Positions 881 through 3,410 of a stretch of DNA of 64,000 nucleotides are shown piece after piece. Origin of the DNA: Pseudanabaena sp. Chao 1811. Its GTDB lineage: Bacteria > Cyanobacteriota > Cyanobacteriia > Pseudanabaenales > Pseudanabaenaceae. A model generated the notes under the pieces. The model worked only from the letters and a program-made list of their open reading frames with translations, had not been told where the DNA came from and made no database searches. How positions within the stretch are numbered: position 1 is the first letter of the stretch; each line of letters starts with the position of its first letter. A program made the translations under genes and the position numbers. Where the stretch lies: positions 310,001 to 374,000 of the forward strand of contig NZ_CP101416.1 in the NCBI RefSeq assembly GCF_027942295.1, given 5' to 3'.

Positions 881-920
881 AATAAAAAATTAGAGCCGCT
901 AGTGGCTCTAATTTTTTATT
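881..920. terminator. Bidirectional terminator hairpin
   Basis: Perfect inverted repeat with stem TTAGAGCC/GGCTCTAA and loop GCTAGT, flanked by A-rich and T-rich tracts. It sits just past the 3' end of the ion-channel gene (minus strand) and upstream of thrC, so its main role is probably to end the channel operon. Confidence 0.75.
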
Positions 921-2038
921 TATGGTAAAGCGAGTAAAACTACACGGGTGATTAGGATAATTAGCCCTAGAGGTAAACTCCAACGGAGGAAATTAGAGAT
1001 CTCAGCCACAATGTATTTGCCACCAAATAGCTTTTCGAGGGATGGATTCATAATCGTTGCGTTAACGGCTAATCCAAGAAACTGGAAGGCAAATCCTAGA
1101 AAAATCACTTGAAAAAAGACATTTTCCACTCCCAAGGCAGGATAACGCACCGATAGGGTGAAACTAAGGGCAACCATGGTCAAAATACTACCTGCCCATG
1201 CCGAAATGCGCTTGTCGAGATCCGTATTAGTCCAGAGCGCCACAATCGTAGGTACTAATAGCACTAAAAACAGAGGGATAAATACATTAGGTAAATGACT
1301 TGCAGGATTGCGCTTCATGGCGATCTGCGCTTCTAGTTGGGGATGGAGATCGCCATCTAAACCCTTAAAACTTGATGGCACAAAGCTAACTCCGCCAGTA
1401 TTCCAACCTGACAAGCGAATTTCCTTTGGAATGCCCGAAAAATCAATGTCGTCTTGGGTTTGCCAGAAGATGATTTTATTACTGTTGTATTTGGAGATTA
1501 GACGGATCGGTAAAGTTTGAATATCAAAGGGGAAATTCGCAAGCTTGTACTTCGCCTCTAAAGTGACAGTTAATCGCTGGAGATAGATCACCGTACCATT
1601 AGCATTCAAATAAAGCTCTGATTCTTGCTTTAATGGTTTCTCTGCTAAATTGGCGATCGCAACTTTCGGGTTCCAGATCGTCGCTAATTTGTTAGTAGCA
1701 TCGTCGCCGACAAAACTTTGCTCGCTAGTACCGACAGTTTTCGAGTCGAAGGCTTGATTGGGATTGTACCAACGCAGGCGCAAATCAATATCTGCGGTAA
1801 ACGTACCCGTCGCATCCATAATCTTCGAGATATTGTTAATGACGAGAGCAACTTCTACCTTAATCGGCTTGGGAACATTGGAGGGAAACTCATTGGTTGG
1901 TTTAGTAATTACAGTGGGTTTCGGAACTGGCGTGACTGGAGGCGTAGATTGTTCTTGAGCATAGGCAATCTTTGCACCTGTCAGAACGAGCAAAAAGCAA
2001 AGTCCAAATGTAATAAGGAATCGATAGAATTTAAGCAT
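920..2038 (-). CDS. Prokaryotic pentameric ligand-gated ion channel (GLIC-like Pro-loop receptor)
   Basis: A 372-residue protein with the full architecture of a bacterial pentameric ligand-gated ion channel subunit. A signal peptide occupies residues 1-27 (cleavage near AYA-Q) and a Pro-rich linker runs to about 55. A beta-sandwich extracellular domain covers about 56-245, with IWNP near 121 and the Pro-loop signature FPFDIQTLPI at 169-178. Four membrane helices follow: M1 about 249-269, M2 about 276-298, M3 about 305-328, M4 about 348-371. The short M3-M4 loop and the lack of loop cysteines are typical of prokaryotic members such as Gloeobacter GLIC. Its ATG overlaps the stop region of the upstream dCache gene by 8 bases, which points to translational coupling. 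Ligand and ion selectivity cannot be read from the sequence. The pore-lining helix has Asp and Lys just before it, so cation selectivity should not be assumed. Confidence 0.9.
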   Translation of the reverse strand: MLKFYRFLITFGLCFLLVLTGAKIAYAQEQSTPPVTPVPKPTVITKPTNEFPSNVPKPIKVEVALVINNISKIMDATGTFTADIDLRLRWYNPNQAFDSKTVGTSEQSFVGDDATNKLATIWNPKVAIANLAEKPLKQESELYLNANGTVIYLQRLTVTLEAKYKLANFPFDIQTLPIRLISKYNSNKIIFWQTQDDIDFSGIPKEIRLSGWNTGGVSFVPSSFKGLDGDLHPQLEAQIAMKRNPASHLPNVFIPLFLVLLVPTIVALWTNTDLDKRISAWAGSILTMVALSFTLSVRYPALGVENVFFQVIFLGFAFQFLGLAVNATIMNPSLEKLFGGKYIVAEISNFLRWSLPLGLIILITRVVLLALP

Positions 2039-3173
2039 TGTGATTCTGACCTTTGCTATCTTCTTTCAATTTTTGCTGGAGTAACTCACATCCCCTTGCA
2101 ATTTTGCCAACTTCATCCTTACGAATAGCCAGATCTTCTATCGATTTTGCAACGGTATCACCGATCGCTAAACTAGTGATATAACTGCCCACAGCAACCA
2201 TCGGACGCATCAGCAAGCCATTAAATAGAATTGTTGCCGTTCCCGCTAAGACAATCACCTCAAATAGAGCTATCACTAAAGAATTGACTAAAATCGCATT
2301 AGCTTGACTTGTTAAAGCCTGAAAACTTTTGCCAGCAACAATTACACCAATTTTTTTACCTTTAAAATCTAGTAAAGGGACTAAAGCAATCCCATAATCA
2401 ATGCCATCAATTTTCTGAACTTTTACAGTCGTATCATTGACCTTACGCAATACATCAGGTGTGAGTAATGGACGGATAAATCCCCAGTTAGTAGCATTCT
2501 CATTTCTTAAGCCACCAATTACGCGATCGCTTTCAGGTGCAGGCAGTCCTGTAGCAACTTTAGTCATCAATTCATTATCAACAAATACTCCTAGCTCAAA
2601 TCCAGTTATCTGTTTAACCGCTTCTAAAACGCTATTAAAACTCATGCCGACTTCAAAACTCCCAATCGCGCCTTGAGCATCAGAGATAGGGACAACACCA
2701 CGAATATTTAGTCCATGACGACTGATTTCTACGCCACTTTGCGGTTCTTGTTTCTGATTGGTAATTACTACTGTTTCTCGAAAGCTAGTCAGATCCTCGC
2801 CATAATTCTTCAGATAAAATAAGCGTAAGAATGATGTCGCTGGTGCTAAATGAAAATGAGCATCACGGACTTCGTAGCGATCTCGTTGAATCAAAAACGT
2901 AGGAACAAGAATCTGCGCTAGTTGGTCACGATCTTTAGCGCGAAAAGCCTGTTGGACTGACGGGAGAGAAGCGACTAACTCAGCCCTAGACAAGGCTTTT
3001 TTCGTTTGTTCATCGGTATATTTCTGGATTAAAGTAACTGTAGTTGCTAGTTCCTCTTTTTGGTTATTCTCAATTGATTGAAGAGACGTTTGATAGAAGA
3101 ATAAAGTCAGTAGAAGAGAAGCAATAAAAGTAACAAGTGTAATTAGTAATGGAACCTTAATCCTTAACTGCAT
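2031..3173 (-). CDS. dCache-HAMP membrane sensor without output domain
   Basis: A 380-residue membrane protein with TM helix 1 (about 8-27), a large periplasmic region (28-290), TM helix 2 (about 291-316) and a cytoplasmic HAMP-like segment (317-368). The periplasmic region contains a run around AHFHLAPATSFLRLF, then SFRETVV and RGVVPI, characteristic of the double-Cache sensory domain found in chemoreceptors and sensor kinases (dCache_3-like; assigned by recall of the family pattern). The protein ends about 12 residues after HAMP, so it has no kinase, methyl-accepting or cyclase domain. The next gene, the pentameric channel, starts inside its last codons (ATGCTTAA overlap). This suggests the two products work together, possibly with the sensor modulating the channel. 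That partnership is inference. The upstream regulator gene lies on the same strand, 235 bases away across two repeats. Confidence 0.85.
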   Translation of the reverse strand: MQLRIKVPLLITLVTFIASLLLTLFFYQTSLQSIENNQKEELATTVTLIQKYTDEQTKKALSRAELVASLPSVQQAFRAKDRDQLAQILVPTFLIQRDRYEVRDAHFHLAPATSFLRLFYLKNYGEDLTSFRETVVITNQKQEPQSGVEISRHGLNIRGVVPISDAQGAIGSFEVGMSFNSVLEAVKQITGFELGVFVDNELMTKVATGLPAPESDRVIGGLRNENATNWGFIRPLLTPDVLRKVNDTTVKVQKIDGIDYGIALVPLLDFKGKKIGVIVAGKSFQALTSQANAILVNSLVIALFEVIVLAGTATILFNGLLMRPMVAVGSYITSLAIGDTVAKSIEDLAIRKDEVGKIARGCELLQQKLKEDSKGQNHNA

Positions 3174-3214: not shown

Positions 3215-3330
3215 AGCAATAAAAGGATTGCTTAGGACATAAACCCCAAAATATGAGTGGCGACGCTTCGAGTCGCCACTCATATTTTGGGGTTTGATTC
3301 ATCCTATCTATCTCTTTATATTTGGTGCAG
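3215..3330. repeat. Palindromic repeat, family D copy 1
   Basis: Long hairpin with stem AACCCCAAAATATGAGTGGC and its complement around a CGCTTCGA-type loop. It is bounded by TATAGCAA and GGACATAAA at one side and the complement of AAAGAGATAGATAGGAT at the other. Related copies lie at 11178-11268 and 39100-39225. Probably a non-coding MITE-like repeat. Confidence 0.7.
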
Positions 3331-3410
3331 ATAGTCCTGTGGCAAGTATGGGCGGCGCTTTGCGCCGCCCATACTTGCCACAATAAAGCTTTTCCTTTTT
3401 AGGACTACCT
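3331..3410. repeat. Palindromic repeat, family A copy 1
   Basis: Ends read ATAGTCCT and AGGACTACC around a hairpin with stem GGCAAGTATGGGCGGCGC. Other copies are at 17505-17731, 38551-38620, 42807-42877 and 59802-59884. The last bases overlap the stop codon of the response regulator gene, so it may double as that gene's terminator. Confidence 0.75.

Follow-up and report, generated by a model that had tools for sequence, protein, structure and literature searches.

A dCache_3 sensor without an output domain is paired with a subfamily of bacterial pentameric ligand-gated ion channels: a candidate two-gene sensory ion channel

The locus described here raises the question of what a chemoreceptor-type membrane sensor acts on when its cytoplasmic signalling module is absent and a pentameric ligand-gated ion channel (pLGIC) is encoded beside it. 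To our knowledge, natural ligands have been established for few bacterial pLGICs, and little is settled about what these channels sense and which roles they play. The window (the whole stretch of DNA analysed: 64,000 nucleotides of Pseudanabaena sp. Chao 1811) contains two minus-strand genes, one for a dCache_3 membrane sensor that lacks an output domain (2031..3173; 380 codons, 380 amino acids) and one for a pLGIC (920..2038; 372 codons, 372 amino acids). As the first-pass annotation had described, the sensor gene comes first and the channel gene second, and the two open reading frames share eight bases (ATGCTTAA on the minus strand; 2031..2038), the channel start lying inside the end of the sensor gene. 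Both domains are called by Pfam. The gap between a response-regulator-like gene and the sensor gene holds a hairpin (3245..3291, unstranded; 20 pairs counted in an inverted-repeat scan). Where the channel gene ends, an inverted repeat whose outer arms are rich in A/T (881..920, unstranded) was seen by eye; it is absent from the scan list and is a possible terminator. Given these two elements, the window pair may be a transcription unit of its own. A second strong inverted repeat was seen by eye at approximately 3340-3381, also in the upstream gap before the sensor gene. The promoter scan of the window (3 found against 6.3 expected) was unused as evidence, and the terminator-like sites (2 against 2.0 expected) were both one hairpin on two strands.

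In the sensor protein, a periplasmic double-Cache domain (residues 36-283; 2325..3068, minus strand; Pfam dCache_3: E 4e-32, 112.1 bits, cut-off 25.7) sits between two membrane helices, the former assigned by Pfam and the latter by eye and from the model. The AlphaFold2 single-chain model (mean pLDDT 79.3) matched chemoreceptor models and many solved dCache sensor domains in fold. The second transmembrane helix (TM2; approximately residues 294-318; 2220..2294, minus strand) is a hydrophobic stretch recognised by eye inside model helix 285-337, and it is followed by a HAMP-like cytoplasmic tail (approximately residues 322-375; 2049..2210, minus strand) delineated by a weak profile match and model helix 354-373. 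An earlier assignment of HAMP after TM2 stood only in part: the partner profile showed weak likeness to solved HAMP-type chains (E 0.24-0.93, residues 322-370/374), among them AF1503 entries, which we take to be HAMP, but Pfam returned no HAMP match in the window sensor at E≤1. In two of four other partner proteins, HAMP was sub-threshold (14.1 and 14.3 bits; Pfam cut-off 25). The tail is, accordingly, described as a degenerate likeness of HAMP rather than a called domain. Four distant partners (L111, L113, L114, and L115) stop approximately ten residues past TM2, so that almost nothing of them would reach into the cytoplasm. No cytoplasmic output domain was found behind the sensor, either by Pfam in the window protein or in the intact partners read. 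The first-pass annotation had raised the concern that a sequencing error might hide such a domain; this is very unlikely because the short form recurs in other intact partners and because dN/dS, measured for both genes in comparison with four copies from the same genus (two of which are close to synonymous-site saturation), is 0.06-0.11. Both genes are under purifying selection.

The channel protein contains an extracellular ligand-binding domain (LBD; residues 51-212; 1403..1888, minus strand; Pfam Neur_chan_LBD: E 7.5e-18, 65.2 bits, cut-off 26), after which come four transmembrane helices, and its AlphaFold2 single-chain model (mean pLDDT 76.9) has the pLGIC fold. The Pro-loop and signal peptide reported from the sequence were both recovered: the former as FPFD at residues 169-172 (1523..1534, minus strand), invariant across the channel alignments, and the latter as an N-terminal signal-like stretch, judged by eye, where the model has an N-terminal helix. 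The best sequence match of the window channel was GLIC (E 6e-30, profile search), and its best fold matches were DeCLIC, GLIC, and sTeLIC, with approximately 20-23% identity. The channel fold and LBD are common to GLIC, ELIC, sTeLIC, and DeCLIC, and the window channel differs from these in its dCache_3 neighbour, a contrast drawn from 58 other channel loci rather than from the loci of the named channels themselves. The retained LBD of the channel may suffice alone. The pore-lining M2 helix (residues 274-298; 1145..1219, minus strand) was placed from the model helix and a profile alignment to GLIC. Under the M2 position names that we assumed for the ion-selectivity comparison, M2 starts with R or K, without an acidic ring, in most cyanobacterial members and is variable in Rhizobiales; no conclusion on ion selectivity was drawn.

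Whether the pair is more than a local arrangement was addressed by a search of the neighbourhoods of pLGIC homologues for an output-less dCache gene, as had been proposed for this locus. Each of the 30 intact loci read for this channel subfamily (152-656 bits against the channel profile) had an adjoining dCache_3 match of at least 147 bits; the sensor frame was open in 29 and split by an insertion element in one. No dCache_3 match was found within flanks of approximately 1.5 kb at 57 of the 58 other channel loci read (13-117 bits), and the remaining one, L013, gave 11.5 bits; a few of the 58 (e.g. L070, L075, L185, and L188) lie near contig ends, where absence says less. The paired and other lists were made by hand with the neighbours already known, and the channel scores of the two did not overlap (152.4-655.5 against 13.1-116.9 bits). 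Two decayed loci of two genus genomes (L029/L045 and L030/L057), in which both genes are broken and fragments of both are kept, were set apart from this tally. Rhizobium-order matches listed without a locus (at most 102.8 bits, the second G871 copy apart) lie outside the loci read, with the exception of one gene that was met again in the search of Pseudomonadota. Exceptions may exist among lower-scoring channel and sensor matches outside the loci read. The possibility that the pair is not conserved in relatives, under which the first-pass reading would fail, is contradicted by pairs across cyanobacteria and proteobacteria.

The distribution of the channel was patchy. A match (E≤0.001) was present in 15 of 38 genomes of the family, which held 15 loci above 200 bits, and, of the 26 genus genomes (the source genome counted), 14 lacked a match above 200 bits; the function is therefore dispensable. 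In the phylum, 13 of 386 genomes had a channel match, and, own genome aside, only G044 (38% identity) and G053 (43%) in this sample were close; the taxonomy of these two is unsure because they are bins with 7% and 9% contamination, respectively. Channel matches were also found in 10 of 385 genomes of alphaproteobacteria, 38 of 397 of the order of Rhizobium sp. FKY42, 16 of 327 of Pseudomonadota at large, 5 of 18 of the class of G053, and 1 of 5 of the class of the L038 genome, these genome samples overlapping by a few genomes. A scan of named genomes yielded 13 loci, including those of the isolates Pseudanabaena biceps PCC 7429, Phormidium tenue FACHB-1050, and Rhizobium sp. FKY42. A search of 72,556 plasmid records gave no match to the window channel at an E limit of 1e-10 and none to one Rhizobiales channel at 1e-20.

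At 29 paired loci read for their junction, the (predicted) channel start overlapped the sensor end by eight bases in 14 and by four bases in nine, and the genes were spaced by 3 to 21 bases in five; in the remaining one (L006/L036), the channel gene is first and the pair is kept. This arrangement bears on the alternative that the sensor-like protein is a subunit for assembly, stability, or trafficking, which would bind the new channel in the manner of alpha2delta in animal calcium channels and would itself sense nothing or only tune channel number. Overlapping genes, with the sensor first in 28 of 29 loci, would favour co-translational assembly, and the available part of one source states that the dCache-bearing alpha2delta enhances trafficking and that a mutation of the binding-site arginine impairs this (PMC12303104). 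On the other hand, the locus with the channel first does not fit such an order, and seven residues of the sensor domain (R117, D127, R132, N139, E149, R158, and E174) are alike in paired and chemoreceptor (MCP)-type sensors. We regard this alternative as rather unlikely.

The association was then viewed from the sensor side. In a sensor-profile search of 397 Rhizobiales-order genomes, 207 had any match, and 30 loci were read among the matches listed. The sensor frame ended at or soon after TM2 in ten of these, and a channel adjoined in all ten. The other 20 had no channel within the flank: 19 were in frames of at least 653 amino acids, and the frame of one (L166) was cut by a contig end. MCPsignal was detected in all eight of the long unpaired frames tested, whereas two paired proteins tested alongside had dCache_3 only. 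Paired sensors have the sensor domain and first-Cache residues in common with dCache_3 MCPs and differ from them in the MCP signalling domain (8/8 tested), which the tested paired proteins are without. A short frame (G1156; 225 amino acids, 79 bits) and weaker matches were left unread among the matches listed, and output-less relatives of the sensor without a channel may exist. In the loci read, the association is two-way: channels of the subfamily occur with dCache_3, and output-less sensors occur with the channel.

These data also bear on the alternative that the sensor acts elsewhere, for example as the partner of a chemoreceptor or of a kinase, and only shares its expression with the channel. 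In its favour, Cache receptors form dimers, so a heterodimer with a full-length receptor can be imagined. However, the 38 family genomes contained no full-length sensor-profile match outside the pair or decayed pair, all others being partial; the association with the channel extends across phyla; and in some partners the cytoplasmic part is almost absent. We consider it highly improbable that the sensor has its target elsewhere.

Phylogenetic trees, both obtained by a quick method, with long branches flagged by the program and with the root not inferred, grouped the paired proteins on each side. In the channel tree (66 rows; IQ-TREE), 23 paired rows were on one side of a branch (SH-aLRT 100), and 41 solo rows and two PBP fusions were on the other; near-identical (L019, L021, L023, L025, L027, and L115) and short (L070 and L075) sequences were left out, as were L066, L178, and later loci. 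In the sensor tree (39 rows), a branch with SH-aLRT 99 separated the 23 paired dCache_3 proteins from the 16 unpaired ones, and the paired sensors showed the same three main groups as the paired channels. A Mantel r of 0.966 between channel and sensor (L002, L021, L025, and L027 left out) is confounded by shared descent and, like the mirrored trees, is expected of any two co-inherited genes. Chance adjacency or an annotation artefact is contradicted by the survey, the reverse search, both trees, and dN/dS, and is hardly credible.

The first-pass annotation had named the co-encoded channel as the only candidate output of the sensor, and this is now supported by four lines of evidence: the two-way association, the grouping of paired proteins in both trees, the reversal of gene order with the pair kept, and the loss of the HAMP-like tail in some partners. 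A functional link between the two genes is, in this respect, well supported. Since an output-less sensor was, in the material read, never away from one channel subfamily, it most simply acts on that channel.

The first-Cache residues R82, F107, R117, D127, R132, N139, G147, E149, G154, R158, E174, and G176 were common to paired and unpaired MCP-type sensors, and residues Q145 and T228 marked the paired set; this comparison, like the sensor tree, left out L002, L019, L021, L025, L027, and L115, together with unpaired L166, L167, L170, and L175 (4 of 20). Such likeness between the two sets would follow if the paired sensors had retained ligand binding, and the dCache_3 domain may bind a small ligand, as the first-pass annotation had supposed. 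It also fits a descent of the paired sensor from chemoreceptors, in which a chemoreceptor sensor would have lost its MCP part and been joined to the channel.

The Pseudanabaena genome (4.73 Mb) contains a second copy, in which the channel is 41% identical and the sensor is in two pieces (46% and 38%). Here, a PBP-pLGIC fusion, a transposase-split dCache_3 sensor, and a pLGIC gene stand in a row (G000:C1, approximately 435934-441810; L047 5935-11811). The channel frame is open here although an insertion element interrupts the sensor gene, which weighs against a two-gene channel, but the interruption may be recent. Such a fusion lies upstream of the pair in nine of 11 clade-B loci (Pfam PBP checked in L037 and L039). 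As a third gene of the unit it was rejected: it is outside the core unit because it is absent beside the window pair. Frames of approximately 660-800 amino acids, most of which match the channel profile with their C-terminal part, were also observed (L066, L179, L184, L185, L187-L193, and L195) in several cyanobacterial-phylum and proteobacterial genomes; these are likely PBP-pLGIC fusions, the Pfam check covering the Pseudanabaena ones only. L016 and L099 carry tandem pLGIC-like gene pairs without a Cache match nearby, and heteromeric channels are possible there; L013, a solo pLGIC locus, gave an 11.5-bit sensor-profile match, probably noise.

The adjoining PBP-pLGIC fusion in nine of 11 clade-B loci is in line with a further alternative, in which the sensor concentrates a small molecule or hands it to the channel's own site, as proposed by Tasneem et al. 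(2004) for Cache and PBP partners in the part of that paper available (PMC549065). A two-helix anchor and a HAMP-like tail would, on the other hand, be odd for a scavenger, and we judge ligand presentation of this kind to be improbable.

Gene context was also considered as a guide to the ligand. In the genus, urate-breakdown genes were located within 10 kb of clade-B pairs at four of 11 loci (L050, L052, L054, and L055). At L055 (10870-15434), these bear the NCBIfam names apt, HpxO, OHCU decarboxylase, PuuE, and HIUase, and those of L050, L052, and L054 were named by BLAST likeness to L055; of the seven clade-B loci without urate genes, two (L051 and L057) end soon after the pair. McpH with uric acid was among the fold matches of the sensor, together with many amino-acid and organic-acid receptors. 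The neighbourhoods of the window, L058, and L059 were partly alike, as were those of L060 and L061 to each other, and window-type pairs otherwise differed; beside proteobacterial pairs, no other recurring flank gene was seen beyond close relatives and opposite-strand frames over the pair. Since urate genes were absent beside the clade-B copy of the same genome and unseen beside the window pair, and flank genes did not recur, assignment of a ligand from gene context was rejected; the lead towards urate, or towards a different purine, is a weak one.

The combination of Cache and pLGIC is itself a known theme. For Rhodopseudomonas, a pLGIC gene and a stand-alone Cache gene were described as forming a predicted operon, and cooperation was suggested (Tasneem et al. 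2004; PMC549065); fusions of MCP-N and Cache to pLGICs were reported in Methanosarcina, Cytophaga, and Microbulbifer (PMC549065). The likeness to the present locus is the occurrence of a pLGIC and a Cache gene together, the operon in the window being deduced from the overlap. As far as the available text of that paper goes, it presents one operon case, leaves the family undefined, and describes cyanobacterial channels as plain (PMC549065). That text does not mention a membrane-anchored dCache_3 partner lacking an output, nor the grouping in trees, the association seen from both sides, or the loss of the tail, all of which are described here (PMC549065). In the available part of the 2016 Cache survey, Table 1 divides dCache_3 (n=883) into kinases (327), MCPs (236), c-di-GMP enzymes (248), and few others, and has zero under ion channels, a column that counts calcium-channel domains only (PMC4822843). 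The gene of ELIC was reported to share an operon with a gene annotated as glutamate decarboxylase, and gene context was used to suggest a ligand (PMC3119659, from the portion available). Beyond Tasneem et al. (2004), we recognised no work on a Cache/pLGIC pair in the literature covered, in which subscription journals are thinly represented. The new part is therefore not the theme, but a reciprocal, coherent family across cyanobacteria and proteobacteria.

The closest functional parallel is animal alpha2delta, where a double-Cache protein likewise serves an ion channel as its extracellular auxiliary subunit (PMC12303104, in the part available). It differs in that it serves the voltage-gated calcium channel family and has a VWA domain and an amino-acid-binding dCache, whereas here the domain is dCache_3 and Pfam gave no VWA match in the window sensor at E≤1.

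We consider it probable that the pair is a two-gene sensory ion channel, in which a chemoreceptor-type sensor serves a pLGIC as an auxiliary subunit in the membrane, gating or tuning it. The product of the upstream gene would be anchored by two membrane helices and would expose a periplasmic dCache_3 domain of the chemoreceptor kind, the cytoplasmic signalling module being absent. The signal would start when the Cache domain binds or releases its ligand, and would travel sideways across the periplasmic face and through the membrane helices into the co-encoded pLGIC; the latter would open or change its sensitivity, with the sensor as its auxiliary subunit. Physical contact between sensor and channel, gating, and the ligand are inferred. 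A bolder reading, that these proteins form a separate channel class with recognition and pore in two proteins, in which an output-stripped chemoreceptor sensor gates the pLGIC laterally, the dCache_3 pocket reads the ligand, and the sensor is the counterpart of alpha2delta, is tentative, and we would put it at somewhat under an even chance.

The pairing with a sensor gives a way to approach the stimuli of such bacterial channels. Because an entire subfamily is accompanied by a sensor, and the periplasmic domain of that sensor is open to purification and ligand screening, the native stimulus becomes testable. If the sensor gates the channel, two bacterial proteins would make up a receptor-channel pair, and, if true, this would provide a simple model for the action of dCache subunits on ion channels.
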